Of a stretch of 64,000 nt of DNA, positions 1,691 through 17,807 are shown piece by piece (position 1 is the stretch's first letter; each line of letters opens with the position of its first letter). A model generated the notes under the pieces. The model worked only from the letters and a program-made list of their open reading frames with translations. It did not search any database and was not told the DNA's origin. The position numbers and the translations under genes were made by a program. The stretch is from NCBI GenBank assembly GCA_030651765.1, contig JAUSBY010000012.1, positions 373,501-437,500 on the forward strand, written 5' to 3'. The DNA is from Coriobacteriia bacterium. GTDB lineage: Bacteria; Actinomycetota; Coriobacteriia; Anaerosomatales; Anaerosomataceae.

Positions 1691-2347
1691 TCACATCGTC
1701 CCGACGGTGCCGACCGGCACCTGGCACCGGCACGCGAGGGACTTCAGGTCGCACGGCATGCGCAGCTGCGTCACGTTCATCCCCTCGGGACGGCGGATGC
1801 GGATGACCGGGGTCAGCAGCAGCGCGCCAGAGACGCCACCGCTGGCGAGCAGGTCGAGCGCTATCTGCACCCAGCCCGGCGAGCAGGCGACGAGCGCCAC
1901 GCTCACACCGAGGGCCGGATCGATCTGCGGGATCTCCGTAAGGTGCTTGACCTCGATCTGTCCGACCATCACGCCGGAATCCTCGGGCAGTTCCGAGTAG
2001 TAGGCCACCGGCTTCACGCCATAGCGGTCGGCCGGGAAGACGACCTGGAGCGCCTCGATCATCTTGGCGGTCCCGATCTTGACGATGGGATACTCCTCGG
2101 AGAGCCCCAGATACTTCGTGAACTCGGTGAAGAGCACCACGGGCTCATACCCGGCGCCCGGCCGGCCGATGTCGCCGACGAAGGATATGTCGCGACGGAC
2201 CGTCTCCTCCTTGATGCCGAGCTCGGCGGCGAGGTGCCGCGAGGTGATCCGGGCCGGAGCACCGACACGGATCAGCTCTCCGAGATAGCAGTGGTAAAGC
2301 GAGAGCCGGTAGAGCGTGGCGTCTGGCGCGTTCCGTCCGTCAGGCAT
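1691..2347 (-). CDS. Rex-family transcriptional regulator with degenerate NAD-binding loop
   Basis: A 218-residue protein. Residues about 10-70 match the Rex winged-helix DNA-binding domain (TLYRLSLYHCYLGEL, ITSRHLAAELGIKEETVRRDISFVGDIGRPGAGYEP). The rest follows the length and layout of the Rex NAD(H)-binding domain, but where Rex has GxGxxG this protein has KIGTAKMIEAL (residues 90-100), with one glycine. NADH sensing is therefore doubtful. The start at 2347 is chosen because GAGGAGG lies about 11 bases upstream; a longer in-frame reading to 2440 lacks this. The gene lies beyond the lipoprotein and cytochrome maturation genes on the same strand. It may regulate them in response to another ligand, but that is inference. 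Confidence 0.8.
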   Translation of the reverse strand: MPDGRNAPDATLYRLSLYHCYLGELIRVGAPARITSRHLAAELGIKEETVRRDISFVGDIGRPGAGYEPVVLFTEFTKYLGLSEEYPIVKIGTAKMIEALQVVFPADRYGVKPVAYYSELPEDSGVMVGQIEVKHLTEIPQIDPALGVSVALVACSPGWVQIALDLLASGGVSGALLLTPVIRIRRPEGMNVTQLRMPCDLKSLACRCQVPVGTVGTM

Positions 2348-2386
2348 CGCTGCAGGGCCTCCTCGGGTGTGCTGCCGATGGAGACA

Positions 2387-2414
2387 ATGGTAGCGCATCT
2401 TTGGGAGATGTCTA
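2387..2414 (-). promoter_or_regulatory. Candidate promoter with internal inverted repeat upstream of Rex-like gene
   Basis: Minus-strand TAGACA (2409-2414) and TACCAT (2387-2392) are 16 bases apart. The spacer holds a perfect inverted repeat, CATCT-TTGGG-AGATG (2396-2410 on the plus strand), suited to autoregulation by a dimeric winged-helix protein. It is seen in sequence but untested. Confidence 0.4.
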
Positions 2415-2466
2415 ACGAATCGGGTGTTCTTCCTGCGCAAACCCTCGCTTGATTGAGCGGAAGCCG

Positions 2467-2931: not shown

Positions 2932-2997
2932 GCTGCCTCCCGTTACCTCGGCGGGTCCGTGTCGGGTGGATCGCCGCGCCTCCAACGCACGTCCGCA

Positions 2998-3486
2998 CTA
3001 TGGCGCAGGATCCCCGACGGCAGGCTCCCCATCGAGCGACGTCACGCGGTCAACGAGCCAGCGACCGTCCTGGAGGACGAGATCGTAGCGCAGATGGTAC
3101 ACCACTCCCTGCTCGGCACGAACCGTCTCGCTCGTATCAAGACTCTCGTGCGCGTAGTCCCACACTTCCGTGGTCGTGACGCTCGCCTGCTCCTCGGCGG
3201 GGAACACCACGTCACCGAACTCGATGGACACGAGGGTTGCGAGCATACGCACGCGGCCCTCACCGAGCGCGGCCATGAGGTAGTACTCGGCAAGCGCCTG
3301 GTCCTCCGTGGCGGTAGCGTTGAGCTCGTTCATGTCCATGGTCTCGAACGCGCGGATGAGTGCTTCGTTGTAAGCGCCGACGGTGGACTGCACCGCGGAG
3401 ACCTCGGGCGCGGCGCCCCCTGATCCGCAACCCGCTAGTCCGCCGAGCAGCAGCGCCACCGCAATCAGTGTTGAGACCAGCCTCAT
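2998..3486 (-). CDS. Lipoprotein with IMS/NTF2-like domain
   Basis: A 162-residue lipoprotein: MRLVSTLIAVALLLGG then lipobox LAGC. The mature region (YNEALIRAFETMDMNEL ... VWDYAHESL ... DLVLQDGRWLVDRV) resembles ARC6-like IMS or NTF2-like domains often seen as small membrane-associated binding domains. The ATG at 3486 overlaps the stop of resC by 4 bases (ATGA), which decides this start over a much longer in-frame reading and suggests translational coupling. A role alongside c-type cytochrome assembly is implied by that coupling, not shown. Confidence 0.8.
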   Translation of the reverse strand: MRLVSTLIAVALLLGGLAGCGSGGAAPEVSAVQSTVGAYNEALIRAFETMDMNELNATATEDQALAEYYLMAALGEGRVRMLATLVSIEFGDVVFPAEEQASVTTTEVWDYAHESLDTSETVRAEQGVVYHLRYDLVLQDGRWLVDRVTSLDGEPAVGDPAP

Positions 3487-4304
3487 GAGAAGTACTCCGA
3501 GTGGACGGTCGAAGTGAACAGCGATGTTCCGAAAAGCGACAGCAATGCCAAGGAGAAGCAGGCCACCATGAGAACCGCCGCCCTGGCCCCGCGCCAAGCG
3601 TAGAAACGCCGGAGGTGCAGATACACCCCGAACACCAACCACGTTATCAACGACCATGTCTCGACCGGATCCCAACCCCAGAACCGGCCCCACGAATAGT
3701 AGGCCCAGATAGATCCCGTCAGGAGACCGACACCCCAAAATGAGAAGGCCAGCCCCGCCGAACGATACGCCAGCCCATCGAGATCATCAGCCGGCGGTGC
3801 CCAGGCGAGCGACGTGCCCAGGCTCCGGGCGATGATCAGAGCCGAGGCACCGAACGACACCAAACCGGTCGCGAACGCAACGAAGTAGAAGGAGACGTGC
3901 AGCGTCAGCCAGATGCCGGTAAATGTCGGCGGCAGCATGCGCACTTCCGGACCCGTGTAGAGGCCAAGTCCGATAAGCAGCATGACCACCGGCATGACGA
4001 CCGCTCCAAGCGGCCTCAGCCTTCCATCCCGCCACGACCAGATCAGCCAGGTGACCACCGAGGCCCACGCATACGCCGACAGGAGCTCGTAGCGGGTCAG
4101 ATACGGACCGTGGCCGGAGCCGATCCAGCGAGTCAGCAGGCCCGCGCTGTGGACGGCAAGCGCGAATCCTGACATCGCGAGCGTCCACCTCCAGCTCTCT
4201 CTTCGTGTCACAACCGTCACGATGCCCACTCCAGCGGCCAACGCGTAGCCGACCAGTGCGACGACATGCAAACGCGGATCGAGAGCCAGCAACGTCTCCT
4301 GCAT
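3483..4304 (-). CDS. resC: Cytochrome c assembly protein ResC/CcsA family
   Basis: A 273-residue polytopic protein of the CcmC/CcsA heme-handling family, the heme delivery half of the System II cytochrome c synthase. The tryptophan-rich heme-binding WWD segment is clear (WGRFWGWDPVETW, residues about 205-217). Conserved-looking histidines occur near residues 52, 136 and 229, and there are about eight membrane segments. Size is normal for the family. The ATG at 4304 is chosen because AAGGAG lies 8 bases upstream; a GTG at 4313 falls too close to it. The start overlaps the resB stop (TGATG). With ResB it would export heme and attach it to CxxCH motifs of the large cytochromes encoded upstream. 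Confidence 0.93.
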   Translation of the reverse strand: MQETLLALDPRLHVVALVGYALAAGVGIVTVVTRRESWRWTLAMSGFALAVHSAGLLTRWIGSGHGPYLTRYELLSAYAWASVVTWLIWSWRDGRLRPLGAVVMPVVMLLIGLGLYTGPEVRMLPPTFTGIWLTLHVSFYFVAFATGLVSFGASALIIARSLGTSLAWAPPADDLDGLAYRSAGLAFSFWGVGLLTGSIWAYYSWGRFWGWDPVETWSLITWLVFGVYLHLRRFYAWRGARAAVLMVACFSLALLSLFGTSLFTSTVHSEYFS

Positions 4305-5536
4305 CAGCCACACTCCTTCAGAAGGGCCTCAACATCTGGCTTGAACGCCGCCCTGGCAAGACGGCTACCAGCCAAGATGAGCCGGTGACCGTCGGCGTCG
4401 GCCACCACATAGACCGTTGCTGACGGCAGGAAGTACAGTGCGAGCGAGCTGATCATGATGATGAACGTCCCTGCTATCAGCGCCTCAGCTCCGTGCTGAC
4501 GAACCAGGACTATGGTCTGCCAGTAGCCATACCCCTCGAGGGTCATGTCGTAGCCGGCCACCGTCACCATGCCAGCAGGCGGGAGCGTACCCTGCCCTTT
4601 GGCGATGCCATCCTCCTCGACACGCACGGTCACCTCGGGCACGATTCCTGTCGACGTCTCCGTCTCGATACTGCGAATCCGAACCTCGCCTGGGATTCCC
4701 GGTATCTCGAGGTCACGATACGCGGGCATGCCAAGGATGGGGACGCTCTCGATCTCGATCCGGTACACGGTCTCGGCGAGTTCGGGGCTTGCGATGCGCA
4801 CGTCGAGCACGCGGCCGTAGACGCGACTCTGGAACAGGCGTGCGCCAGACCACCTGGTGACCGAGTTGACCGAGACGCGGAGGATCTGACCCGACTCGGT
4901 GTCTCGGAACTCGCTGTCCAGAGAGCGCAGTTCTCCCGTTGACCAGTAGACGGGATCCACGCGGTTCAGTACGAGAGCGTCGTCGAGCGCGATACCTGGA
5001 GCGAGTTGTGCTTGGAACCGCATAGTGGGCTGCGCCGAGGCATCCAGCACGTCACCCTCACGCAAGGTGTACTCAGATCGCGACTCGGTGAGCAGGACCG
5101 AGCTCATCCCAAGCATCACCAGCAGCAAACCAAGGTGAAGCGCGACACCGGCCCATCGAGACCACGGATGCCTGTGGAAGGCCACGGCATCGACATCGGG
5201 CAGCTGCTGTGACCTCCACCCACGTGCCGTAAGAGCAGCCTCGACACACTCGGTACGAACAAGGGGCTCTCGACCGGACAGACGGGGGGCCACGACCCTG
5301 CGGGTCTGGCGCATCAGTGATCGCACTTGCACGACAAGCGCGGCGCAGATCGCCACGGCACCGGCCGCAAGGAGAACTGCCACGATCGTCCTGAACGGGC
5401 GCCCCGCTTCAGCGCCTTCTGTCAGCAGGAGAGAGCCCTGGGGCAAGAGAGAGACGATTGCGAGAACCGTGACGAGCAGGATCATGAGGGCCAGTGCGAG
5501 CAGCCGCGAGGTCAGCAACCTAGATGGAGTGCGCAC
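4304..5536 (-). CDS. resB: Cytochrome c biogenesis protein ResB
   Basis: About 410 residues with the ResB/Ccs1 layout: a membrane segment near the N-terminus (LLALALMILLVTVLAIVSLL), a second (TIVAVLLAAGAVAICAALVV), a third after a cytoplasmic loop (GVALHLGLLLVMLGMSSVLL), a long extracytoplasmic domain and a final C-terminal segment (LIAGTFIIMISSLALYFLPS). It partners ResC in System II cytochrome c maturation. The start is uncertain: a GTG at 5536 overlaps the upstream cytochrome by a little, while a GTG at 5593 is also in frame; neither has a clean SD, so translation may be coupled to the upstream gene. Sitting directly downstream of an 18-heme cytochrome fits dedicated maturation. Confidence 0.88.
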   Translation of the reverse strand: MRTPSRLLTSRLLALALMILLVTVLAIVSLLPQGSLLLTEGAEAGRPFRTIVAVLLAAGAVAICAALVVQVRSLMRQTRRVVAPRLSGREPLVRTECVEAALTARGWRSQQLPDVDAVAFHRHPWSRWAGVALHLGLLLVMLGMSSVLLTESRSEYTLREGDVLDASAQPTMRFQAQLAPGIALDDALVLNRVDPVYWSTGELRSLDSEFRDTESGQILRVSVNSVTRWSGARLFQSRVYGRVLDVRIASPELAETVYRIEIESVPILGMPAYRDLEIPGIPGEVRIRSIETETSTGIVPEVTVRVEEDGIAKGQGTLPPAGMVTVAGYDMTLEGYGYWQTIVLVRQHGAEALIAGTFIIMISSLALYFLPSATVYVVADADGHRLILAGSRLARAAFKPDVEALLKECG

Positions 5537-5549
5537 GCTCCGACACCGA

Positions 5550-8500
5550 CTACCAATCCCAGTACATGGTCTGTGCCGTGCCGTTGTGAGCACCGCAGTT
5601 GATTGGCGATGAGGTCACCTGGCAGGTGGCGTTGGTCCGACCGGACCCACCGATACCCGTGGTCGGGCTGAGGTAGAAATTGACCAGTTGCGTGCCTGCG
5701 TTGTACGGAGCGGGCGTCGGACGCCCTCCAGTGGTGCCGGTGGTCGCAAGTAGCCGTGGTGCCGCCCCGCCGTGCGGGATGGCGATGTGGCACTTGCCGC
5801 ACGAGTAACCCCTGTTGGCGTGGTTCGAATGAGCGATGTTTGATGTCGCCAGGTTCGTGTGGCACTTGGCACACAGCAGGCCTGCGGTCGAGTTCAACGT
5901 GTACCCAGCGGCATTACTCGTGGGATTCCAGTTGCCTCGAAGGATGCGCGTCGTCGCCGATCCGTGCGGGCCCATCGCGACCGGCGTCACCGCGCTGTCC
6001 ATGTGACAGTCAGAGCAGTACATCGTCTGATTGCCCTTGTAGCTGTTCCACGGCCCGGTCATCGTCTGCGCGGTCCGCAACGGGCGCCTGGCCTTAGCGA
6101 ACACCGGGTGATACGAGTCGTTCGCGGGGTTGAACTCGAGTGCGACATTGGTCCACGCAGCCGCTGTCGACCAGCTGAAGGTGCCCGACGACCTGTTGGC
6201 AGCCCCATCCGGTGTGTAGCTCGAGTTGAAACCAGTGTGGCACTTCAGGCAGATCTGATACTCGGCCTGGGCGCCGTCGACGACAGCGTAGGTCGGCTCC
6301 GTCCATTCTGCGGTCGGGACTATGCTGACGCCCCAGACCCCGGCTAACGGCGAGACGTCCGCGATCGAGTTGCTTGGCGCCACCGTGCTCGAGCGCTTGG
6401 TTCCGGAAACCGCCGCCGCACCTGCGGCATGCGGGCTGTGGCAGTCCGTGCACTCCACATGCTCCCCAGCGGTGAACCGCGTCACACCGCCTACAGCTCC
6501 GGTCTCATCAAGCACCGAGGGAGCGTGGAGGCCGGCCCACGATCGCGAGACGCGGTGACTGCGCCGCGCCGCGTTGTTGTTGGCGAACTGGGTGTACACG
6601 CCCTGCGAGGCCGCGCTCATCGTCACGCCCGGGGTCTGATACCAGTCCCTGTCAGCCGCAGCCTTGAACCCCGCAGCCGACGGTGAATGACAGCTGTAGC
6701 AGAAGCGTTCCTCCGTATACGGGTCGCTGGCCGCATCCCCACGCCCAAGCGCGGCGAGGATCCGGCGTGAGCTGTTCCAGTGGAGTCCAAACGTGGGCGC
6801 CGAAGATGCCGAGTCGTAGTAGTCACGGGCCCTGTTGTCATTGTGACACTTCGCGCAGTTGGCCTGGAAGGTCGAGCTGCCGTCGCTGAACGGTGCCGAC
6901 TCGACCGTGTAGAGCGTCGTCCCATCCGTCTTGACCCCGTGCGCCGAACCGCCGTAGGTGTCCGGATCGATCGCCGGGGTGAACTCCGTTCCGTCTGCCG
7001 ACGCGCGGTTGTCCGTGTCCTTCGCGCGGACCACGTCATGGCAGCCGAGGCAGATGCCACCGGTCGACGCGACGTAGTCGGTATCGGCGGGCACAGCGTC
7101 ATCGATCGACTGGCGCAGGTTGGCGCCCTTGGAGGTCGGACCGCCATCCTTGCCGTCGTAGAACTGATCATGGTCCACGTGGCAACTCAGGCAGTAGACC
7201 TCAGTGTCGGCGAGCGGCGTGGTGCCTGCACCCGGATAGGGCTCACTATCGAACGCGTGATCCCCCCGATACGCTCCACCAAGCACATGGTGATACGAGT
7301 CCTGCCGCTGATCTCCGTCGGACTCCATAGCATCGCGATATCCGCCGTGGCAGTCGTAGCAGCGCTGCCCGCCAGCGGAGACGCCGGCGGGGTTAGGCGA
7401 ATGCGGCGATCCATGGCAGCTGCAACCCTCGAGCGTGTCGCTTTCATGCTGGGGAACCGTCGGTGGCAACTGCACCATATCGGCCCGCGCTATGCCCGTG
7501 ATCACCTTCGTGACGCTCGCCCCGGCCGAGGCCAGCTCGGAGGCCGGCCGCATCGTCCCGCTCGCACTGTCCCACCAGAACCCGTCCGAACTCAGATGAC
7601 ACGAGTAGCAGAAAGCCGACTGCCCGGCAGGCGTGCCGGGATCGAGGTTCGACCCGAGCGAGTCCTGGATGAGCAGCGCATTGCCGTTCTTCGAGCCGTG
7701 CGCATTGTGGCACTCGTAACACGGCAACGGTGAGCCGGCCTGAAGGACCGAGTCGGCCGAGCTGATGAAGTGACCGGTACCGTAGCCTTCCCCGGCTTCG
7801 TGGCATCCAAAGCACGCGTCAGCGCCCGGATCGCCTGGGGCACTCGGCCCGAACGTGTCGAGCAGATTGTCGTACTCGCTCACGCCCCTGTGACTCGCGT
7901 GGCACCAGAGGCAGTCGCCCACGACGCGCGCAGCCGTCCGCTCGGGAGCCGCCTGTATCACGACACTGTCCGATGCAGGGATCGACGCGTGCGCACTGGC
8001 GGCATACGCCGCCGCGCCGCGGAACGTGCCGGTCATCGGGTAGCCTCTCGCGTCGCGGCTCGACGACTCGTAGAGCAGGTCGTAGTAGCCATCGCCGACC
8101 AAGCCCGACCAGTTGGTGGCGAGTTCGGGCGTGTGGCACGCGAGGCACCAGGAGTTCGGCTCGGCGGTGCGACTGACCTCCTGGCCGTTGATCTCGGATC
8201 TCGGAAGCCCGGGCGCCGACGAGTGCGCATCGTGACAGCCGGAGCAGGTGTTGGTGAGATCCGGGCCCTCATCTTCGGCCACATCCTCGACCGCGTGACC
8301 GCTCAGGAATCCGCTCTCGAAGGTCGCTGCCGCGTTACTCTCGGCCGGCCCGGCGTCGGCGTGACACTTGAAGCAGAACAGCGTCTGCGTAACGACCGTG
8401 GAGGTGGAGTCGACGGATAGCAGCCCTCGGGATACGGATGCCTGGTGTGGCACATGGCATGTACCACACCTGCTGAGGTCGGGATCGGAGCTGTAGTCAC

Positions 8501-8660
8501 CGTGCGGGCTTTCGGCAGCAGCGGCAACGGAAACCAGAGAAACGACGATGATCGCGCTGGAGGTCGCCACGAACAGAGCGCGTGTGAAGCCGCGCGCCCT
8601 ACCGCGTGCTCCGGTTGCTGCCCCAGGGCACCATGCACTCCGCGCGAGCCGCACGCTCAC
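5550..8660 (-). CDS. Large multiheme cytochrome c (18 CxxCH)
   Basis: About 1036 residues with an N-terminal signal or anchor segment (LFVATSSAIIVVSLVSVAAAA) and 18 canonical CxxCH motifs spread along the whole chain, many followed by a second His a few residues on, as in doubled-CxxCH/cytochrome c3-like repeats. One additional site is CSCH (7413-7424), with one residue rather than two between the cysteines. The protein is expected outside the cytoplasmic membrane as an electron conduit or storage protein; no enzymatic domain was recognised. The start is uncertain: GTG at 8660 follows AAGGG by 4 bases, and GTG at 8654 is the alternative. It ends inside the start region of resB, consistent with one operon. 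Confidence 0.93.
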   Translation of the reverse strand: MSVRLARSAWCPGAATGARGRARGFTRALFVATSSAIIVVSLVSVAAAAESPHGDYSSDPDLSRCGTCHVPHQASVSRGLLSVDSTSTVVTQTLFCFKCHADAGPAESNAAATFESGFLSGHAVEDVAEDEGPDLTNTCSGCHDAHSSAPGLPRSEINGQEVSRTAEPNSWCLACHTPELATNWSGLVGDGYYDLLYESSSRDARGYPMTGTFRGAAAYAASAHASIPASDSVVIQAAPERTAARVVGDCLWCHASHRGVSEYDNLLDTFGPSAPGDPGADACFGCHEAGEGYGTGHFISSADSVLQAGSPLPCYECHNAHGSKNGNALLIQDSLGSNLDPGTPAGQSAFCYSCHLSSDGFWWDSASGTMRPASELASAGASVTKVITGIARADMVQLPPTVPQHESDTLEGCSCHGSPHSPNPAGVSAGGQRCYDCHGGYRDAMESDGDQRQDSYHHVLGGAYRGDHAFDSEPYPGAGTTPLADTEVYCLSCHVDHDQFYDGKDGGPTSKGANLRQSIDDAVPADTDYVASTGGICLGCHDVVRAKDTDNRASADGTEFTPAIDPDTYGGSAHGVKTDGTTLYTVESAPFSDGSSTFQANCAKCHNDNRARDYYDSASSAPTFGLHWNSSRRILAALGRGDAASDPYTEERFCYSCHSPSAAGFKAAADRDWYQTPGVTMSAASQGVYTQFANNNAARRSHRVSRSWAGLHAPSVLDETGAVGGVTRFTAGEHVECTDCHSPHAAGAAAVSGTKRSSTVAPSNSIADVSPLAGVWGVSIVPTAEWTEPTYAVVDGAQAEYQICLKCHTGFNSSYTPDGAANRSSGTFSWSTAAAWTNVALEFNPANDSYHPVFAKARRPLRTAQTMTGPWNSYKGNQTMYCSDCHMDSAVTPVAMGPHGSATTRILRGNWNPTSNAAGYTLNSTAGLLCAKCHTNLATSNIAHSNHANRGYSCGKCHIAIPHGGAAPRLLATTGTTGGRPTPAPYNAGTQLVNFYLSPTTGIGGSGRTNATCQVTSSPINCGAHNGTAQTMYWDW

Positions 8661-8818
8661 CGGTCCCTTCGCAGCCAGCCCCTCGATGTATGTCACGTAT
8701 TCAGCAGCACGACTCGTGCCACGGTGCACAAGCGCCCGAGGGCCGGTCCGTCATGCCTACTGAGCATCTACCCGCGTACCCGCTCGCGGGTAACGGCGAG
8801 ACGATCGTCGCAACTCTC

Positions 8819-8840
8819 AGTATAGCCTGTAGCTGCTACA
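8819..8840 (-). promoter_or_regulatory. Possible promoter element upstream of the 18-heme cytochrome
   Basis: Minus-strand TATACT (8819-8824) is a good -10 hexamer. Just upstream is a perfect inverted repeat TGTAGC-T-GCTACA (8828-8840) that overlaps the end of the NHL gene. No convincing -35 was found, so the site may be activator-dependent or spurious. Confidence 0.3.
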
Positions 8841-9858
8841 ACCGCACTCCGTACACCTTCACGCGGCCCACGTCCGGGTCGGTGACGTAAAGCCGCCTGG
8901 AGCGCTCGTGCCACGCCACCCCTTCCGGGGCAAGCGGTGCGTCTGTAGAGACTGTCTCGGCAGCGATCGAGTGCGTCCGCACGCCCTCGGCGTCGCACAC
9001 TCGAACGGCGGCGCCCAACACCTCTGCGACCGCAACCCCGTCGCGCACCGCCACGACGCCGCGCGGCAGGGAGTACGCATCGGCGAACACGCCGATCTCG
9101 ACTCCGGACATCGGATCGAGCATGCGGACCTGGTTCCGATCGGACTCGGCCACCACGATCCGCTCGTCGCTCACCGCGATACCGCCGACGTGTCCGAGCG
9201 GAGGCTCCGCGGCCGCGCCGAGCGAGCGGACGAATGCGCCCTCGCCGTCGTAGACGTGGATCGCTCCGACAGCGGCATCGGCAACGTAGATCTCACCGTC
9301 ATGGTACGCGACGGCCGTCGGTCGCTCCGGCGCGGTGTCGTCATCCTGAGCGCCCACTCGGAAGAGCAGGTCCGCAGAGTCTGCGGCGGTCTGGAAGACC
9401 AGCACGCGCCCGCCCCGGGCGTCGATCACCGCAAAGCGCTCCGATCCGGCGGCGGCGACTGACGTGGGCACGGCCTTCGCCTGCCCGTCCGCGACGTCGA
9501 GCACGACCTCGCCGGTCCGCTCGCCCTTCTCGTTGAAGATAGCCACCCTGCCCGCACCGGCCTCGGCGATGTAGACGCGCGAGCCGTCGATGGCGATGCC
9601 CGAGGGCTCGGCAAGGGGCTCCTCGCCCTCTGCGGGGAAGTAGCCGACCAGCCCCACCCCGATCGAAGGATCGTCTGGAAGATCGGCGAACGGATCGGTG
9701 CCGAACGGCCAGCCGATGATACTCACCGCCACGATGGCCGCGGCCACGATCAGCACGATGACGATCGCGGCGACGAGATGGCTCGGCTCGACGTACTTAA
9801 GGCGCGCGATCAACCGCCGTTGTGCGGGAATCGGGCCCTCGGGTACCTCGTCACTCAC
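8836..9858 (-). CDS. Membrane-anchored NHL-repeat beta-propeller protein
   Basis: A 340-residue protein: short cytoplasmic tail, one membrane helix (residues about 28-50, HLVAAIVIVLIVAAAIVAVSIIGW), then NHL-type repeats of the form PxGIAIDGSRVYIAEAGAGRVAIFNEKG, repeated about six times to the C-terminus. NHL propellers are interaction scaffolds; here the propeller would face the cell exterior next to the cytochromes. The ATG at 9858 overlaps the stop of the NapC-like cytochrome gene (ATGA), implying coupled translation and perhaps a stable complex. A second NHL protein of the same design is at 12835-13959. The exact partner is not known. Confidence 0.9.
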   Translation of the reverse strand: MSDEVPEGPIPAQRRLIARLKYVEPSHLVAAIVIVLIVAAAIVAVSIIGWPFGTDPFADLPDDPSIGVGLVGYFPAEGEEPLAEPSGIAIDGSRVYIAEAGAGRVAIFNEKGERTGEVVLDVADGQAKAVPTSVAAAGSERFAVIDARGGRVLVFQTAADSADLLFRVGAQDDDTAPERPTAVAYHDGEIYVADAAVGAIHVYDGEGAFVRSLGAAAEPPLGHVGGIAVSDERIVVAESDRNQVRMLDPMSGVEIGVFADAYSLPRGVVAVRDGVAVAEVLGAAVRVCDAEGVRTHSIAAETVSTDAPLAPEGVAWHERSRRLYVTDPDVGRVKVYGVRL

Positions 9859-11084
9859 TGGCCGCTCCGAACGTGGCAGGCGGCGCAGTACGTCGGGTTA
9901 TGGCACTCGAAGCACGCCTGGGCGCCGCCGTCACGCACCGCGCCCATATGCTGCGGGATCCACAGTTGCGCCGGGTCGGCGGTCTTGTGGTGGCAGCCGT
10001 TGCAGAACTCGGTGCCGGCAGCCTCGACCGGGCGGCCCTCGCCGGCATGGCACATCGCACACGAGTCGGCTTGCTGCTTGCCCGCCTCGCCGTGACCGGT
10101 GAGGAAGCCCTCGGGGTGCGGCATCTCAACGCCGTGACAGTCGACGCAGAACGTGTCCACGATGTGGCACGTGCTGCAGTAGTCGATGGACGAGACGTCG
10201 GCCAGATGCAGCACGTGGTCGTCGCCGGAGGAGGGAGCGTAGGACCCGCCGGCCTCGGCAGTCGCTTCCTCACTCGCCCCGTGGACGACCGGCTTGCGCA
10301 CCGACTCGGCCGGACGGCCCGTGGCATGGTCGACCTCCATGTTCGCCAGCTGCGCGTGGCCCTTGGGGTAGAAGCCCTCCTCCTTGTGGTTGGCGGGCTT
10401 GAGATCGAACGAGGCGCTGTGGCACACGGCACACTCGCCGGGGGCCTTGTACTCGTCGCCGGACGGTGACTCGGCCGTGAGCGTGTGGCAGCGGAAGCAC
10501 GCGGTCATCGTCATGAAGTCGGCATGCAGGGCGGCAGGCTCGCCGGTCTCCGGGTCGACCATCGTGATCTCGAGCCCGGCCTCCGGATGGGCGACCCGGT
10601 TGTGACATGCCGTGCAGTGGACGTGCTTCTCCTCGTGGACCTCGTGGTCGATGAGGATGCCTGTGCTCGGCGTGATCAGACGGTTCTCCGAGTGGCACTG
10701 CGTGCACTGCCCGGAGCCCATGTGTGCGCCGTCGAGCGCCAGGTGGCTCACGGGGTTGAGCGGCACGTGATAGGTCTTTGTCGCGAGTTCGTACGCTCCC
10801 ACGATGCCGGCGTGGGCTTTGTGATAGAGGAACGTGACCGGGTCGGCGTTAGCCGGGAGGTGACACGAGATGCACGCGACCATGTTGTGCGACGAACCGT
10901 CGTAGGCGACCACCGGATCGAGCTGGACCGAGTGGCAGAAGCCGCCGCAGAACCAGTAGCTCGACGTGGCGCCGAGCGCGACCATCATCACCAGCAGCAC
11001 GCTGACGATGCCGACGGCCGACCAGATGAGATACCGCGGCCGACGCACCGGGTCTTTGAATCCGGCAAGGGGGTTCAGCGACAT
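9855..11084 (-). CDS. NapC/NirT-like membrane-anchored multiheme cytochrome c (12 predicted hemes)
   Basis: A 409-residue protein with an N-terminal membrane helix (YLIWSAVGIVSVLLVMMVALGAT) followed at once by a heme site, as in NapC/NrfH quinol dehydrogenases. There are 11 canonical CxxCH motifs. The first site, directly after the helix, is CGGFCH (CX3CH; DNA 10932-10949), in the position of the quinol-facing heme of NapC-type proteins. Likely role: take electrons from the menaquinol pool and pass them to the larger cytochromes; the electron direction is inferred. It lies between the 15-heme cytochrome and an NHL protein and overlaps the latter by 4 bases. Confidence 0.92.
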   Translation of the reverse strand: MSLNPLAGFKDPVRRPRYLIWSAVGIVSVLLVMMVALGATSSYWFCGGFCHSVQLDPVVAYDGSSHNMVACISCHLPANADPVTFLYHKAHAGIVGAYELATKTYHVPLNPVSHLALDGAHMGSGQCTQCHSENRLITPSTGILIDHEVHEEKHVHCTACHNRVAHPEAGLEITMVDPETGEPAALHADFMTMTACFRCHTLTAESPSGDEYKAPGECAVCHSASFDLKPANHKEEGFYPKGHAQLANMEVDHATGRPAESVRKPVVHGASEEATAEAGGSYAPSSGDDHVLHLADVSSIDYCSTCHIVDTFCVDCHGVEMPHPEGFLTGHGEAGKQQADSCAMCHAGEGRPVEAAGTEFCNGCHHKTADPAQLWIPQHMGAVRDGGAQACFECHNPTYCAACHVRSGQ

Positions 11085-11109
11085 GAAGCGGCTCCTAGCG
11101 GGTCGAGGA

Positions 11110-12588
11110 TCAGAAATCTACACCGACGATCTCGCCGGGAACAACGCCGTGGCAGATCAGGCAGTTGCCGTCGAACGGGAACTGGTAGTGCCGCAGCATG
11201 AAGTAGAACTGGCTGCCGTGCGGGTTGTGACATGAGGACGTGCACGACAGCGCACTCTTGGCGTTGACGTCGTAGAACACCGGTCTCACCGGATGCTTGT
11301 TACGGTCGTTGCCACCGGTGATGTCATCGAAGTCCACCTTGGCGTGACAGGGGAAGCACACCTCGGGCTGCGGCCCCTTGAGCAGCGGGCCCCAGTCGGA
11401 TCCGTGCGGGGTATGGCAGCGCCAGCACGGTGTCGACCGGTGCGCCGACAGGTCGTAGCTGGCCTGTATCGGCACCGAGTGACAGTCGTAGCAGATGTCG
11501 TTGCCCTCGCTGTACAGCAACCCCACGTAGTTGGTCGCGTGCGGGTCGTGGCAGCTGCTGCAGTTGAGCGAGATCGTACCGACGGGGTGGTGGCTCACCT
11601 TGAGGAAGTCGTTCTTGATCTCCCCATGACAGTCGTAGCACAGCGCCGGCTGGTTCTTGATGAGCAGCGGCAAGTAGTTGGAACCGTGCGGCTCGTGGCA
11701 ACCGGTGCAGTTGTCGTAGAGGAACGGCTGGTGCTGCACGCCCATGCGCGACAGGCGCGCCACCGATGGATGGCACGTGAAGCACAGGCTGCGCTGCGAG
11801 TCGACGAGGATCCCCCGGTAGCTCGACGCGTGCGGGTTATGGCAGTCGAGGCAGACCCGGGCAGCGAAGGACGGATGGACCTGGTCGCGCTCCATCTCCG
11901 GCCCGACCTTGTGGCACGTGACGCACAAGTCCCGCACGTCTTGCGTGAGCATCCCCGCGAAGTCCGACGCGTGCGGATTATGACAGTCGACGCAGTAGCC
12001 GTTCATGAACGGTGCGTGCGTGTACGGCTCGGCACGTAGCGGCCCCATGTTCCCGTGGCACATCCAGCACAGTTCGTTGGCGGGCATCACGAGTTCCGAC
12101 TCGGCATCCTTGATCTCGGTCGTCGTCTCGCGGACGACGCGGTCGGGGTCGACCTCGCCAGGTGCCCGCCCGTCCGGCGTGTCGAACACGTCGAGCACGA
12201 GCTTCAGCGGCAGCCACTCCACGAGCGTGCGCACACGGTTCCAGGCCATCTGAAGGCCCTCGAGTACGGTCTCGGTGCGGATCTCGCCGTGAGGTGTGTG
12301 ACACGTCGTGCACCGTTCGAGCATGAACGGCTGGTGGACTGCGGTTCTGGAGAAGTCCGGGATGAGCTCCGTGTGGCACTGAAGGCACTCGAGGTTACGC
12401 AGCACACCGCGCACGACCTCATCGTCACCGCGGCTCAGATACGTCTGGGTGATGGTCGTGATCGCGCACAGGAGCAGCAGGAGAACCAGCACGGCCGCAA
12501 AGACCCCACGGCCACGACGGTTCGTGGTCCCGGTCTCTTCGCCGCCATCGGGCCCGGCGTCTATGGCCGAAACGTCCGGTTCGCTCAA
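11110..12588 (-). CDS. Membrane-anchored doubled-CxxCH multiheme cytochrome c (15 predicted hemes)
   Basis: About 492 residues: an N-terminal membrane helix (FAAVLVLLLLLCAITTITQTY) then 14 CxxCH motifs plus one CX3CH (CTSSCH, DNA 11227-11244). Most heme sites are followed by NPHxS, TPHGS or EPHGS, the signature of the paired CxxCH repeat, and repeats are spaced about 25-50 residues apart. The start is taken as TTG at 12588 because GGGGAG lies 5 bases upstream; a GTG at 12606 is the alternative. It is the first gene of the cytochrome group on this strand and lies 25 bases before the NapC-like gene. Expected to be extracytoplasmic; no catalytic domain is visible. Confidence 0.92.
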   Translation of the reverse strand: MSEPDVSAIDAGPDGGEETGTTNRRGRGVFAAVLVLLLLLCAITTITQTYLSRGDDEVVRGVLRNLECLQCHTELIPDFSRTAVHQPFMLERCTTCHTPHGEIRTETVLEGLQMAWNRVRTLVEWLPLKLVLDVFDTPDGRAPGEVDPDRVVRETTTEIKDAESELVMPANELCWMCHGNMGPLRAEPYTHAPFMNGYCVDCHNPHASDFAGMLTQDVRDLCVTCHKVGPEMERDQVHPSFAARVCLDCHNPHASSYRGILVDSQRSLCFTCHPSVARLSRMGVQHQPFLYDNCTGCHEPHGSNYLPLLIKNQPALCYDCHGEIKNDFLKVSHHPVGTISLNCSSCHDPHATNYVGLLYSEGNDICYDCHSVPIQASYDLSAHRSTPCWRCHTPHGSDWGPLLKGPQPEVCFPCHAKVDFDDITGGNDRNKHPVRPVFYDVNAKSALSCTSSCHNPHGSQFYFMLRHYQFPFDGNCLICHGVVPGEIVGVDF

Positions 12589-12796
12589 CGGTTCTCCCCA
12601 ACACACGCAAACGGGGTACCCGCACGCTCGAACGCGGCAGGCGCCCCCTCTGCCGACAGTCTACCACGCAAGCCCGTGTCCGAGTTCCGCGATTCACAAT
12701 CACGTCGGTGCACTTCTGCGGACAGCATTTGCGATGTCCCTCGGTCACCGTGCTCGAGTGTCTTCGCCGCACTGCGTGTGCGCTCCAGGTTCATTC

Positions 12797-12802
12797 ATCA
12801 TA
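12797..12802 (-). promoter_or_regulatory. Possible -10 element for the cytochrome operon
   Basis: Minus-strand TATGAT lies in the 246-base gap between the NHL gene and the 15-heme cytochrome gene. No good -35 was seen at the right distance. The leader to the start codon would be about 200 bases and contains a single Rex-like half-site, TTGTGAA (12693-12699), without its partner. Otherwise the gap shows nothing recognisable. Confidence 0.3.
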
Positions 12803-12834
12803 ACAAAACTCCGGCGTGACCGGCACCGCCATGA

Positions 12835-13959
12835 TCAGTTCACAAGACGCACGAACTGCACCCTACCGGCGCCCTTATCGGCGATCACGACGAAGCCCCT
12901 GAGCACCTCCACGTCATTCGCGAAGTTGAGCTGCCCGGGCTGCACCCCCCGCTCGCCGTACCGGGAGATGATCTCGCCCTCGGCGGATAGCCTGACCAGG
13001 TCGAACCCGAACGCGTCGGCCACGAGGATCGAGCCGTCCGGCATGACCGTGAGTCCGCGCGGGAGTTCGATCTCACGCTCCTCCTTGTCGGTCACGCCAC
13101 CCGAGATGGTTCCGACCTGCCAGAGCACCTCGCCTTCCGACGTGAAGGCCGTGACGCGATTGTGGTTGGAGTCCGAGACATAGACCGTCGCACCGTCATC
13201 GCTCACCGCGATGCCGTTGGGCCGGTCCAGATCACCGGCACCGGTGCCGGGTTTGCCCCACTGAGCGACGAACTCGCCCTGGCGATCGAAGACGATGATC
13301 TGATACGAGTCGGTCACGTAGACCCGTTCTCCGCTCACCGCGACATCGGTGGCGGCGATCCCGAGCCCGCCGGCTCCGGAGCCACCTCGGCCTGTCACCG
13401 CAAGCGGGTCCGGAAAGCGCAGAAGCGGCGCGCCGTCGGGATCGAACACCTCGACCGAATCGTTGTAGAGGCTCGCCACGTAGACGTTACCGTCCTCGTC
13501 GGTGTCGATGCCGACGGGATAGTTGAGCGATCCCGGCGCGTAGGTCGAGACCGCTCCGGCAGCGGGCTTGGCCACCCCGAACGAACCGAACTCGAACTGG
13601 AAACGCCCCTGGGAGTCGAAGACGCACACGCGGCTGTTGCCCGCGTCGGTCACGTAGATCCGGTTGCCCTCGCCAACGGCAACGCCCATCGGCCGATCGA
13701 ACAGCGGCCGTTCACCTTCGGCGGGGCCATGGACCTGCCAGACGGGCTGGATTCCCTGCTTCGCGGGTACGTCGGTCAGAACCTCCGGCCTGCCGAGGAA
13801 CCACAGCAGGTACACGACGAGCCCGATGAGGATCAGCGTCAGCGCGATCGCAAGCAGCATGAACGCGCGCCGCGGCGTGAGGTTGAAGCCGCGGCGGGGC
13901 GGCAGCACGTCTGACTCGGGAGTCGGCTCGAAAGCCTCCGGTGCATGGTTGTCGGACAC
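12835..13959 (-). CDS. Membrane-anchored NHL-repeat beta-propeller protein
   Basis: A 374-residue protein with one membrane helix (residues about 31-54, RAFMLLAIALTLILIGLVVYLLWFL) followed by an extracytoplasmic NHL propeller. Repeats such as DRPMGVAVGEGNRIYVTDAGNS and NYPVGIDTDEDGNVYVASLYN recur about six times. The start is a GTG at 13959, 4 bases after the TPR gene's stop and preceded by AAGGGTAGGAG; the reading frame stays open far upstream, but that part is out of frame with the TPR gene and has no NHL character. Together with the TPR gene it forms the tail of the operon that also carries rex. Partner unknown; an anchoring role for surface cytochromes is inference. Confidence 0.88.
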   Translation of the reverse strand: MSDNHAPEAFEPTPESDVLPPRRGFNLTPRRAFMLLAIALTLILIGLVVYLLWFLGRPEVLTDVPAKQGIQPVWQVHGPAEGERPLFDRPMGVAVGEGNRIYVTDAGNSRVCVFDSQGRFQFEFGSFGVAKPAAGAVSTYAPGSLNYPVGIDTDEDGNVYVASLYNDSVEVFDPDGAPLLRFPDPLAVTGRGGSGAGGLGIAATDVAVSGERVYVTDSYQIIVFDRQGEFVAQWGKPGTGAGDLDRPNGIAVSDDGATVYVSDSNHNRVTAFTSEGEVLWQVGTISGGVTDKEEREIELPRGLTVMPDGSILVADAFGFDLVRLSAEGEIISRYGERGVQPGQLNFANDVEVLRGFVVIADKGAGRVQFVRLVN

Positions 13960-13963
13960 GCTC

Positions 13964-14692
13964 CTACCCTTCCTGGCCGAGTCGGCGGAGGCCTTCCTGG
14001 GCCTCGGCGTAGTCTGGTGCGTAGACGAGCGCCCCGCGATAGTACTCGATGGCCTGCGACACGAGTCCAAGCTGCTCGCACGAGTAGCCCGCCAGGTACT
14101 GCAGGTCGGCGAAGTGCGGCCGGGCTTCGATGACCGGCTCGAGTGCTGTGAGCGCGGACTTGAACTGCTGCTTTCCGACGTAGTACTCGCCGAGCGCCTT
14201 GGCGGCAAGCGCATGATCCGGCGCGACCTCGAGTACGTCCCAGAAGGCGACCTCGGCATCTTTGGTGCGTCCGAGTTCGCCCAACACGACGCCGGTGTTG
14301 TACAGCGCACCGGTATTGCCCTGATCGGCCGCCAGCACCGCCTCGTAGGCCTTGAGGGCGTCCTCGTAGTCACCGCGCTGCTGGTAGGCGTAACCAAGAC
14401 CGAGCATGCTCTCGGGATCGTTCGGATCGGAGTCCAGAGTTCGCTGCCACTCGGCGACAGCCACGTCGGTTGGCGACACGACGGCATCCGAGCCCACGAT
14501 CACGCCGCGGATCACGTAGCCGCCAAGCACGGCCACGACGAGTAGCAGAAGCAGGACCGTCAGCGCGAGCCAGCCAGGGATGAGGTCCTGCGTGATCTGC
14601 TCCGCCTGCGAGGGTGTGGGCTGCGAAGCGCCGCCGCGGTCGGCGGACTCGACCTCATCGGGGTCGGGGGCGATGTCGTTGGTGTGCTGCAC
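13964..14692 (-). CDS. Membrane-anchored TPR protein
   Basis: About 242 residues: an acidic N-terminal tail, one membrane helix (LALTVLLLLLVVAVLGGYVI), then about four tetratricopeptide repeats (SMLGLGYAYQQRGDYEDALKAYEAVL, ALYNTGVVLGELGRTKDAEVAF and so on) to the C-terminus. TPR domains assemble protein complexes, and the NHL gene follows after 4 bases. The start is uncertain: GTG at 14692 has GGAG just upstream, whereas ATG at 14710 has no SD. It lies 35 bases downstream of rex. Confidence 0.85.
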   Translation of the reverse strand: MQHTNDIAPDPDEVESADRGGASQPTPSQAEQITQDLIPGWLALTVLLLLLVVAVLGGYVIRGVIVGSDAVVSPTDVAVAEWQRTLDSDPNDPESMLGLGYAYQQRGDYEDALKAYEAVLAADQGNTGALYNTGVVLGELGRTKDAEVAFWDVLEVAPDHALAAKALGEYYVGKQQFKSALTALEPVIEARPHFADLQYLAGYSCEQLGLVSQAIEYYRGALVYAPDYAEAQEGLRRLGQEG

Positions 14693-14727
14693 GACACTCC
14701 GTTTCCTCATGTGCGATGTGACGGTCT

Positions 14728-15372
14728 CTACAGCGGCTTCTGTGCCAGGTAGAACGAGAGGATCTGCAGCTCTGTAGACAGGCATGTCTGCCGCACTGCC
14801 ACCTGTTCGGGGACGGACAGACGCACGGGAGCGAGGTTGAGGATGGCCCTGACCCCGGCCTTCACCACGCGATCGGCAAGCGCCTGGGTGACCGGCGCCG
14901 GCGTCGCCATGATGACGACCTCCGCGTGTGACTCGACAAGCACGTCCTCGAGGTCGTCGACCGAACTCACCACGATCGGGCCCGAAAGTGACTGGACTTC
15001 GGTGCCGATCTTGGCCGGGTCGCTATCGATGACCGCGACGATCTCGAAGCCGCGCTCGGCAAACCCGCTGTAGCCGAGCAAAGCACCGCCGAACCGGCCG
15101 AAGCCGATGATCGCGGCACGCCGCCGCTCGGCGATGCCGAGCACGCCGGATATGTGGGTGATGAGGCTCTCGACGTCGTAGCCGATGCCTCGCGTGCCCA
15201 GCTCTCCGAGGTAGGACAGATCCTTGCGCACCTGCGCGGCGTTGGTGCCGCACATCTCGGCCATCTCGACCGAGTTGACCAGCGGCATCCGCTGGGCCTG
15301 CGCCTCAAGCAGACACCGCAGGTACAGCGGCAGACGCTGGATCGTGGTCTGGGGTACGATCGCGCGTTCCAT
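14728..15372 (-). CDS. rex: Redox-sensing transcriptional repressor Rex
   Basis: A 214-residue protein of standard Rex length. The N-terminal winged helix (about residues 11-66) includes NSVEMAEMCGTNAAQVRKDLSYLGELGTRGIGYDV. The Rossmann domain has an intact GFGRFGGALLGY loop (residues 90-101), an acidic VIDSD strand end near residue 116 and the family C-terminal stretch ILNLAPVRL. Rex represses fermentation and respiration genes when NADH/NAD+ is low and lets go when NADH binds. The start at 15372 is fixed by GGGAGG 5 bases upstream. Unusually, it lies inside a tight same-strand run between a glycan ligase and the TPR/NHL genes, so it may be transcribed with them. Confidence 0.95.
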   Translation of the reverse strand: MERAIVPQTTIQRLPLYLRCLLEAQAQRMPLVNSVEMAEMCGTNAAQVRKDLSYLGELGTRGIGYDVESLITHISGVLGIAERRRAAIIGFGRFGGALLGYSGFAERGFEIVAVIDSDPAKIGTEVQSLSGPIVVSSVDDLEDVLVESHAEVVIMATPAPVTQALADRVVKAGVRAILNLAPVRLSVPEQVAVRQTCLSTELQILSFYLAQKPL

Positions 15373-15388
15373 CGAACCTCCCGATCGA

Positions 15389-17797
15389 TTACGGGGCGGA
15401 TGTGGCCGCCGAGGTCTCCTCGGCATCCATCTCTGCCAGGCTGGCGAAGGCGTCGGCGTTGTCCGGCGAACGCCTGAGTACGTGTTCGAATGCGGCGCGT
15501 GCATCATCGGGCCGGCCGACTCTGCGATAGGTCTCGCCGAGCATGAGCCATGCACCCGTGTAGCGGCTGTCGAGGCCCGTGGCGAACTCGAGCTCGGTGA
15601 CGGCCTCCTCGATGCTGCCGGTGTTCATCAACGCGATGGCAAGCTGGACCCGGACGGCGGGACCGTACTCTTCGACGAGCACGCCGAGACGTGCCACCTC
15701 GATCGCCCGCTCGTAGTACGCGGGGTCGATGTACGTGCCCGCCTGGTTGTAGAGGTTCGAGAAGAAGACGTAGGTGTCGTACTCGTTCGGCACGTAGACG
15801 ATCGTGTCGCGGAATGCGGCCTCCGCGTTTGCCAGGTAGGCCTCGGCGGTACCGCGCATCGCCTCGTCGCCGGTAGACGCGTACTGAGAGGCCGCTGCCT
15901 CGAACATCTTCTGCCAAGCCGCGCCACGCTCGAGACGATACATCTCGTTGTACGGGTTGAGCTCGATGGCCCGCTCGATCTCGGCGACCGACGCGGCGCC
16001 GCTTGTGAGTACGCGACCGGAAAGGTAGTGGTGATCGGCGATGACGTACCGGACGTTGAGCACGACGCCGACGACGAGCAGGACGCCGACCACCGGTATC
16101 GCTATCGCCTTCCACGATGGTGCAGCAAACTGCCGGGAATGCGCCCCGGGGCTGAGCAGGACACCCATGGCCAGCCACATGATCACCGTGGAGCCGGTGA
16201 CCGAAAGCCCGAAGAACAGATGCACGACGTAGCCGGCGACGGCGGCCCAGAAGCCGGCGAGCAACAGCCGTTCGGTGCCCTTACCCCGTGCGAACACGTC
16301 GCGCGCCGACGAGGCCAGCGCGTATGCGATCAGGCCGTAGACGAGCAACAGCCCGGGAATGCCGATCCCACTCGCGAGCTGGAGCGGGTAGTTGTGCACG
16401 TTGTCGGCCACCGACAGATACCCGGCCGTCTCGACGTACTCGGCGGGCTTGAACATCGGGAAGAGCAGCCGGAAGGTATCCGCGCCCCAGCCGAAGATCG
16501 GGCGCTCGGCGATCGCCGCACGGGCGGCCTCCCAGATCTGGAAACGGGTGAGCGCACTGCCCTGATCGAACTGGAAGATCGAGACCACGCGCGTCACGAC
16601 GTTGCGGACGGCATCGGGCTGAAGTGAGCTCGCGATGACCGCGACCGCTCCGACCGCGCCCGCCGCGCCCATGAACGCCTTGTCGATGACGGTGAGCCGC
16701 ATCCCGGTGCCCGAACGAGCACGCAGGTACGCGACGACGAGCAGCACAAGCGAGACGGTCGCGCCGATCCAGGCGCCACGCACGTACGACGTGATGCCCA
16801 CGAACACGTTGAACACCGTGAACACCCAGTAGATACCGCGCCAGAGCTTGTGGTTTTCCGTGAATGCGAGGGCGATCGCTATCGCCCACGGGAAGATGAG
16901 GTAGCCGCCGAGCAGGTCGGGATTGCCGAACGTGGCGAACGCCCGGTTCGTCTCGAACGGCAGATTGCCCCACTGCACGGGATCGATCGAGACGGCGGCC
17001 AGGCCGCGCTGCACCGCGATGTCGATGTTGCCGTCGAGGCCGAGGTAGAACACCAGTCCGCCGAGAAACGCGATCGCGGCGCCGATGAACAGCGCACGAC
17101 GTGTCTCGGGGTCTCCCCCGGCACGCGTGAAGGCGAGCGCGAGCAGACCGCCCGCCACACCGAGGGCGCCGACCAGGGAGAGCGGCAGGAGCACGCGCGC
17201 GGCGCCGAGACTCACGGTGCCGATCACCTGGATGGCGCCGTAGGCAGCCACGAGGAACCCGCCGATGGCGAGCGAACGCGCGAGCGAGCGGATGCGCGAC
17301 GGCTTGTCGGCGTACTGGAGCGCCACGAAGAACGTCACGGCGTAGGTGATGAAGGAGATGAGTCCCTCGAAGCGCCGGTACTTGCCGAAGATGGCAGTGG
17401 GCGGATGCACGGAGAGCACCGAGGTGAGCACCAGCCACGCGAGGACCGCGAGGACGACCCATTCGACGCGGGTGAAACGGATCTTGCCGCCCCGCACGAA
17501 CATGCCGATCGCCCAGGAGCTGAGCGCGATGAGCATGAGCCCGCGCTGGACGAACACCTTGGCGATGTCGAACTGATCGAACGTGAGCGGGATCCCGCCC
17601 GGGCTAAGCGGCCCGAAGTTGGACATCGCGATCGGGACGAGGATCACGAGGATGTGCAGACACGTCCACGCGATGCGGTCCCAGACATCCATCGGCGGCC
17701 CCGCGGAAGCGGAGGCGCCCGGCGCTTGTTTGTCGGCGTACTTCGCTGTCGACCCATGGGCCGACTTGAAAGCAGCGCCTTTCTTCTTGTTGGCCAC
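15389..17797 (-). CDS. O-antigen ligase/polymerase-like membrane protein with C-terminal TPR domain
   Basis: About 802 residues: roughly 12-14 membrane segments over residues 30-580 including the Wzy_C region (RFQIWEAARAAIAERPIFGWGADTFRLLFP), then a soluble C-terminal part with TPR-like helices (VAEIERAIELNPYNEMYRLERGAAW, YTGAWLMLGETYRRVGRPDDARAAFEHVL). Proteins of this build join or polymerise lipid-linked glycans at the outer membrane face, or act in protein glycosylation. The start is taken as GTG at 17797, with AGGAG 7 bases upstream. It lies 10 bases after the sugar transferase gene and 16 bases before rex. Substrate unknown. Confidence 0.87.
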   Translation of the reverse strand: MANKKKGAAFKSAHGSTAKYADKQAPGASASAGPPMDVWDRIAWTCLHILVILVPIAMSNFGPLSPGGIPLTFDQFDIAKVFVQRGLMLIALSSWAIGMFVRGGKIRFTRVEWVVLAVLAWLVLTSVLSVHPPTAIFGKYRRFEGLISFITYAVTFFVALQYADKPSRIRSLARSLAIGGFLVAAYGAIQVIGTVSLGAARVLLPLSLVGALGVAGGLLALAFTRAGGDPETRRALFIGAAIAFLGGLVFYLGLDGNIDIAVQRGLAAVSIDPVQWGNLPFETNRAFATFGNPDLLGGYLIFPWAIAIALAFTENHKLWRGIYWVFTVFNVFVGITSYVRGAWIGATVSLVLLVVAYLRARSGTGMRLTVIDKAFMGAAGAVGAVAVIASSLQPDAVRNVVTRVVSIFQFDQGSALTRFQIWEAARAAIAERPIFGWGADTFRLLFPMFKPAEYVETAGYLSVADNVHNYPLQLASGIGIPGLLLVYGLIAYALASSARDVFARGKGTERLLLAGFWAAVAGYVVHLFFGLSVTGSTVIMWLAMGVLLSPGAHSRQFAAPSWKAIAIPVVGVLLVVGVVLNVRYVIADHHYLSGRVLTSGAASVAEIERAIELNPYNEMYRLERGAAWQKMFEAAASQYASTGDEAMRGTAEAYLANAEAAFRDTIVYVPNEYDTYVFFSNLYNQAGTYIDPAYYERAIEVARLGVLVEEYGPAVRVQLAIALMNTGSIEEAVTELEFATGLDSRYTGAWLMLGETYRRVGRPDDARAAFEHVLRRSPDNADAFASLAEMDAEETSAATSAP

Positions 17798-17807
17798 GCG
17801 CACGCTC

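Follow-up and report, generated by a model that had tools for sequence, protein, structure and literature searches.

What does a cluster of three large multihaem cytochromes, flanked by haem-attachment and redox-regulator genes, do in a bacterium with a Gram-positive-type envelope? The question is raised by a 64 kb stretch of the genome of a Coriobacteriia bacterium of the order Anaerosomatales (hereafter the window; positions 373501-437500 of contig C6, G000:C6:373501-437500, in the 2.26 Mb, 15-contig host genome G000). The operon occupies approximately positions 1691-15555 of the window, with all genes on the minus strand. It encodes a NapC/NrfH-like 12-haem cytochrome (NapC12), an MtrA-like 15-haem cytochrome (MHC15), an 18-haem cytochrome (MHC18), the haem-attachment proteins ResB and ResC, two NHL propellers, a TPR protein and two Rex-type regulators (Table 1). 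From this gene content, the operon is probably a respiratory conduit for extracellular electron transfer (EET) of a Gram-positive anaerobe. Three findings are new. Many families of the order, and in part lineages outside it, conserve a module of NapC-like, MtrA-like, NHL, TPR and Rex genes; members of the MHC18 family reach at least 75 haems in a single polypeptide of approximately 5,100 residues and usually end in a Cys-Cys-His-Trp tail; and ResB/ResC follow the MHC18 family, with System I as the housekeeping haem maturation of the genome.

Haem-binding motifs of the three cytochromes

The cytochromes contain 45 haem motifs, comprising 43 CXXCH and two CX3CH: 14 + 1 in MHC15, 11 + 1 in NapC12 and 18 in MHC18. 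An earlier reading of the DNA from its letters alone (the sequence-only reading) had named three large cytochromes with about 45 haems, among them an 18-haem protein, and the motif counts (15 + 12 + 18, the last in the open reading frame (ORF) 5550-8729 of the minus strand) agree with it. No other open frame in the window has more than one CXXCH. Across the genome, the CXXCH DNA pattern was counted 526 times, compared with 134 times for the reversed control. All 18 CXXCH of MHC18 were invariant in a 15-row alignment of relatives, and the C and H motif positions were invariant in 21 NapC12 and 14 MHC15 orthologues, with the exception of common alignment shifts at a single site. Given this invariance and the genome-wide excess, the haem motifs are not chance occurrences.

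In twelve relatives of MHC18 an additional CXXCH, the 19th, lies between motifs 8 and 9. At this site, residues 436-439 of MHC18 read CSCH, with a one-residue spacer, and two relatives read CNCH and CSCH. As relatives carry CXXCH at this position, a 46th haem is possible. A literature search on CX3CH motifs in Gram-positive multihaem proteins returned nothing.

The MHC18 family and associated System II genes

MHC18 has a signal-type N-terminus, hydrophobic near residues 51-69, and no further hydrophobic anchor. Members of its family were detected in 45 of 69 Anaerosomatales genomes. Most had 17-19 haems and approximately 1,050-1,180 residues, and others had 33, 42, 44, 48 and 75 CXXCH. The longest uninterrupted frame (G012:C25:119041-134334) contained 75 CXXCH in 5,097 residues; the first of them lies at residue 1317, leaving some 1,300 N-terminal residues without haem motifs; the 75-haem frame of another genome, G060, spans an assembly gap. 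Proteins of the 18/19-haem class end in a Cys-Cys-His-Trp tail, of which His1048 and Trp1057 were invariant in 15 sequences, and the alignment of this class held 25 conserved non-motif histidines for 18 haems. The tail pattern was found in 18 of the 27 distinct large proteins and in no MHC15 or NapC12 protein; in loose form it also occurred, by chance, in one unrelated 12-haem protein. No solved relative close in sequence to MHC18 was found. The nanowire proteins OmcS, OmcE and OmcZ gave no sequence match to it, the only weak match being 9yuq, a 16-chain multihaem entry (E = 0.022), and a Pfam search detected no S-layer domain. Contig C1 of the same genome encodes a tail-bearing MHC18 relative (L226 7714-10635; 15 CXXCH, 973 aa) with no adjoining ResB/ResC.

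The co-encoding of ResB/ResC with the cytochromes, already noted in the sequence-only reading, was confirmed by Pfam matches above the cut-offs. The pair belongs to System II (CcsBA/ResBC), having both the ResB and Cytochrom_C_asm domains and the WWD motif WGRFWGWDPVETW in ORF 3483-4313. This ResB is divergent, scoring below the NCBIfam CcsB equivalog cut-off (159 vs 187.6 bits), and is the sole true ResB of the host genome. A second candidate, at C6:443926, was rejected because it is CcmF. It lies within a Ccm cluster of CcmF, CcmE, CcmB, an ABC ATPase and two CcmC-like proteins, which identifies the host's housekeeping maturation as System I; CcmF was present in 63 of the 69 genomes.

Of 27 large cytochromes, 17 have ResB/ResC immediately downstream; for a few others the pair lies upstream or was detected in part. 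Across the 69 genomes, 45 had both the MHC18 family and ResB, none had the family only, 12 had ResB only and 12 had neither (Fisher p = 3 × 10−7; within-family shuffling p = 0.001; CcmF control p = 0.41). The corresponding numbers were 38, 0, 5 and 9 in the subset of at least 90% completeness. A single genus included one genome with both (G060) and three with neither (G057, G058 and G059). Joint loss of ResB and the MHC18 family from incomplete genomes could produce such a pattern, but the complete subset argues against it. We also considered ResBC as a lyase specific for CX3CH. This was ruled out: ResB-less genomes keep NapC12 and often MHC15, some of them (for example G054, G058, G059 and G061) with the 11 + 1 and, where present, 14 + 1 proteins unchanged, so that the CX3CH motifs do not need ResBC.

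We tentatively propose, as an idea that may well prove wrong, that Anaerosomatales keep a client-specific System II for secreted giant cytochromes of 18 to at least 75 haems, in which the tail would act as a recognition signal or as an inter-subunit haem ligand and synthesis, export and end-to-end assembly into a wall-spanning wire would be coupled. A comparable arrangement accompanies the giant S-layer cytochromes of anaerobic methanotrophic archaea (ANME), the largest reported with 86 haems, which likewise adjoin a private copy of haem-attachment machinery (PMC9012536). Those organisms differ in being archaea, in the S-layer domains of their cytochromes and in using a divergent CcmF (System I) paralogue, whereas here a System II pair is found in a System I bacterium. 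The parallel between the private CcmF and ResBC suggests that the need for private maturation arose at least twice. Because the System II pair follows a single cytochrome family and the organism otherwise relies on System I, this need becomes testable.

The NapC-like and MtrA-like cytochromes

NapC12 probably is the quinol-facing entry protein, judging from its homologies. It matched PF03264 (NapC/NirT) with 31.7 bits (cut-off 24.1), and its family profile aligned with NrfH (2j7a, E = 1.4 × 10−6) over the membrane helix and haem sites 1-2. Its only hydrophobic segment, residues 19-37, predicts one N-terminal membrane helix. The protein thus shares the helix and the first two haem sites with NrfH, NapC and CymA, but differs from them in carrying 12 rather than 4-5 haems, in a first motif of the CX3CH type (21 of 21 orthologues) and in the replacement of the CHIM methionine of NrfH; its score against the NrfH equivalog of NCBIfam was 44.4 bits, with a cut-off of 134.2. 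The NapC-like, quinol-facing character given to it from sequence alone is hence upheld for the homology and the helix, and the quinol donor is uncertain, quinones being undetected in isolates.

NapC-like relatives occurred in 66 of the 69 genomes and fell into two classes, one of approximately 400 residues with 11 + 1 haems, to which the operon's protein belongs, and one of approximately 720 residues with 21 + 3. A long paralogue is present in the host genome (G000:C7:185416-186636, L223 4568-6655; 21 CXXCH + 3 CX3CH). The long form was found throughout the order, usually near a Rex gene and with no NHL gene nearby in the sampled loci.

MHC15, described in the sequence-only reading as an anchored 15-haem cytochrome, indeed combines 14 CXXCH and one CTSSCH with an N-terminal hydrophobic segment. 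It matched chain A of 6r2q (E = 5.7 × 10−27), which we take to be MtrA (the match table labels the chain otherwise), and scored just below the cut-off of the MtrA/DmsE decahaem family TIGR03508 (184.7 vs 192.2 bits). MHC15 is therefore homologous to the Shewanella MtrA and DmsE-type decahaem cytochromes, but differs in having 15 haems instead of ten, one CX3CH, an N-terminal anchor and a cluster without a porin gene. No MtrB-type outer-membrane porin was found among the annotated cluster neighbours, a genome-wide porin search not having been done.

Conservation of the module

Genes of relatives were called with a simple codon-bias script in limited windows, and the neighbourhood counts are accordingly minimum estimates. 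Counted over loci for which 15 kb or more of sequence was available, the short NapC12 class had NHL nearby in 16 of 31, MHC15 in 15 of 31 and TPR in 18 of 31, versus none of these in any of the 19 long-class loci. The operon itself has a higher rate than these counts show, as a second paralogue of the short class stands alone, outside any such operon. The gene order that recurred was (O-antigen ligase, sugar transferase) - rex - TPR - NHL2 - [7-haem protein] - MHC15 - NapC12 - NHL1 - [large multihaem cytochrome] - ResB - ResC - [lipoprotein] - rex, subject to losses and rearrangements among relatives. In G008 and G009, MHC15 was adjoined by a 33 + 4-haem protein. The set of MHC15, TPR, NHL and Rex recurred in other families of Actinomycetota: MHC15 relatives (E ≤ 1 × 10−30) were detected in 24 of 396 genomes drawn from the whole phylum, and several of them likewise adjoin TPR, NHL and Rex genes. 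The conserved module, widespread among the sampled genomes of a subsurface order with hardly any cultured members, offers a defined gene set to test.

A hydrophobic N-terminal segment was predicted for each of MHC15, NapC12, NHL1, NHL2 and the TPR protein. NHL genes regularly accompany these cytochromes and are found in other EET clusters as well: NHL-repeat proteins stand among the EET multihaem cytochromes of Desulfovibrio ferrophilus (DFE_0451/0463), the Uet system (UetHI) and Geoalkalibacter (PMC9769857, PMC10734462, PMC12016550). These are diderms, and Uet has a porin, whereas the host here is of Gram-positive type. The two propellers and the overlap of the NHL1 start with the NapC-like gene (4 bp shared with its end) had been recognised correctly from the letters; that the propellers act as scaffolds is a guess. 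The Rex genes at both ends of the operon suggest redox control.

Direction and destination of electrons

Electron passage through thick Gram-positive walls is known in detail for few genera only. One cultured member of the order, Parvivirga hydrogeniphila, is described as an obligate Fe(III) reducer with a cluster of Rex, an MtrA-like cytochrome, a quinol-oxidising multihaem cytochrome and biogenesis genes, and Anaerosomatales isolates as having Gram-positive walls and pili-like appendages (Khomyakova et al. 2022, PMC9686372). As a relative reduces Fe(III) and has such a published cluster, an EET conduit is the best reading of the operon and not a wholly new one; we read the operon as the same kind of cluster as those of P. 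hydrogeniphila and Anaerosoma tenue in the same order, on description and with accessions unmatched. NHL proteins are not mentioned in that paper, nor, in the passages used here, are TPR genes, a split between System I and System II, a conserved tail at the C-terminus or an expansion into giant cytochromes (PMC9686372). The ImdcA-PdcA-CwcA-OcwA chain of Thermincola likewise leads from membrane through wall to a surface cytochrome in a Gram-positive bacterium (PMC7911101). Compared by description rather than by homology, its proteins have 10, 10, 6 and 9 haems and those of the operon 12, 15 and 18, and the operon differs further by joining NHL, TPR, Rex and System II genes with its cytochromes.

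From this assembly we infer as follows which way electrons flow, where in the wall the proteins sit and what the companion proteins do. NapC12 would take electrons from the quinol pool, or return them; the anchored MHC15 would carry them outward; and the secreted MHC18 and its giant relatives would conduct them across the wall to a mineral, an electrode or a partner. The System II pair would serve the large secreted cytochrome, with System I (Ccm) maturing the other cytochromes. The TPR protein and NHL propellers may, as anchored accessory proteins, help with folding, assembly or positioning, and Rex would tie expression of the operon to the NADH/NAD+ ratio. The conduit across a Gram-positive-type envelope put forward in the sequence-only reading thus stands in part, as the best account of an NrfH-like entry, an MtrA-like wire, a secreted cytochrome, a neighbourhood with neither a porin nor a terminal reductase gene, and relatives that respire Fe(III) or dominate a cathode.

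Several points weigh against this account. Quinones were undetected in both described isolates (PMC9686372), which makes the entry donor uncertain. AlphaFold models of MHC15 and MHC18 (14- and 15-row alignments) had a mean predicted local distance difference test (pLDDT) score of 40 and 31, too low for any haem-wire geometry to be obtained, and scans for Rex boxes and operators gave matches no better than shuffles. The association of ResB with the MHC18 family is correlative, and the 12 ResB-only genomes have no detected family member. Finally, the host genome encodes NrfA, so that some of the operon's cytochromes could feed nitrite reduction.

Electrons might instead flow inward, donated by a cathode, by Fe(II) or by a syntrophic partner and handed to a hydrogenase or formate dehydrogenase. 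EMTCatB1, of the same family, dominated a methane-producing biocathode with highly expressed multihaem genes, and direct electron uptake was proposed by the authors (PMC7943316); the host genome also encodes molybdopterin enzymes with an in-frame TGA (selenocysteine-type). However, the EMTCatB1 cytochromes corresponding to the operon could not be established, and P. hydrogeniphila reduces Fe(III) for growth, using H2 or formate (PMC9686372). With one relative reducing Fe(III) and another proposed to take electrons up, the direction cannot be read from sequence, and we regard inward flow as unlikely.

Rather less probable is that the cytochromes are wall-confined carriers for a known reductase encoded elsewhere, mainly NrfA, with the NapC-like protein as the NrfH equivalent. 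The absence of a visible terminal reductase, stated in the sequence-only reading, is true of the neighbourhood but not of the genome, which has NrfA fragments and, elsewhere, two molybdopterin enzymes with in-frame TGA. The resemblance of NapC12 to NrfH and the NrfA homologue fragments on contigs C10 and C12 fit this route. Against it, these contigs are not the operon's, NapC12 scores far under the NrfH equivalog cut-off, and nitrite could be reduced without a 15-haem wire and without a secreted 18-haem protein, the latter expanded to 33-75 haems in relatives; in addition, the cultured relative respires Fe(III). The NrfA halves lie at contig ends (G000:C10:152-709 and C12:133-879) and are probably one gene split by the assembly. 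That the large secreted cytochromes are mainly electron stores (capacitors) or haem or iron depots in the wall is the least probable alternative. Up to 75 haems per polypeptide would suit storage and no terminal site was identified, but the close linkage of their genes to those of a quinol-type entry protein and an MtrA-like wire implies through-flow.

Gene list and neighbouring clusters

The unit flagged in the sequence-only reading rightly held the cytochromes, NHL1 and ResB/ResC but was too small, as NHL2 (12835-13959), the TPR gene and both Rex genes belong to it as well. The TPR and Rex genes had escaped that reading, as had the coexistence of a System II pair with housekeeping System I. 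The start of NHL2 is most probably the GTG at 13959, directly after the TPR stop codon. By the NapC-like protein, the named relatives of the host are metagenome-assembled genomes of the order Anaerosomatales (Actinomycetota, Coriobacteriia), UBA2272 being closest (98% identity).

Table 1 Genes of the multihaem operon, in window coordinates
Product	Position	Strand	Evidence and remarks
Rex redox-sensing (NADH/NAD+) repressor	14728..15555	-	NCBIfam Rex equivalog, 253.1 vs cut-off 226 bits
Membrane-anchored TPR protein, start uncertain	13964..14785	-	Pfam TPR families; hydrophobic segment 74-92; adjoins MHC15/NHL in many relatives
NHL2, N-terminally anchored NHL propeller	12835..13959	-	Pfam NHL 3.2 × 10−25, 87.3 bits vs 20
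MHC15, MtrA/DmsE-like cytochrome, N-terminal membrane anchor	11110..12606	-	14 CXXCH + CTSSCH; Pfam paired CXXCH; 6r2q match
NapC12, NapC/NrfH-like 12-haem cytochrome, N-terminal membrane helix	9855..11084	-	11 CXXCH + CGGFCH; PF03264
NHL1, N-terminally anchored NHL propeller	8836..9858	-	Pfam NHL 3 × 10−14, 52.7 bits vs 20; segment 30-48
MHC18, secreted 18-haem cytochrome of giant-cytochrome family	5550..8729	-	18 CXXCH; Cys..Cys..His..Trp C-terminal tail
ResB (CcsB-type), divergent	4304..5593	-	Pfam ResB 37.4 bits, cut-off 24.6
ResC/CcsA haem-attachment protein	3483..4313	-	Cytochrom_C_asm 5.4 × 10−35, 121.4 bits vs 29.9; WWD-type motif WGRFWGWDPVETW
Lipoprotein, real start probably near 3490	2998..3738	-	Adjoins ResB/ResC in several relatives ('rps' matches)
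Second Rex-like regulator, far side of cluster	1691..2440	-	NCBIfam Rex subfamily 6.4 × 10−27, below cut-off; Pfam Put_DNA-bind_N

At 15389-20309, the cluster is flanked by genes for an O-antigen ligase with TPR, a bacterial sugar transferase and a glycosyltransferase, and similar neighbours recur across the order. Two further multihaem clusters with TPR and NHL genes were found in the host genome. One ends just before the window (G000:C6:353501-373500, at 12731-19364) and encodes proteins with 12, 10, 4 and 3 haems. The other (G000:C1:165000-184999, at 8351-20000) comprises 6 + 1, 12 + 1 and 20-haem cytochromes, and continues with a molybdopterin oxidoreductase with an in-frame TGA and then an iron-sulphur-type subunit.

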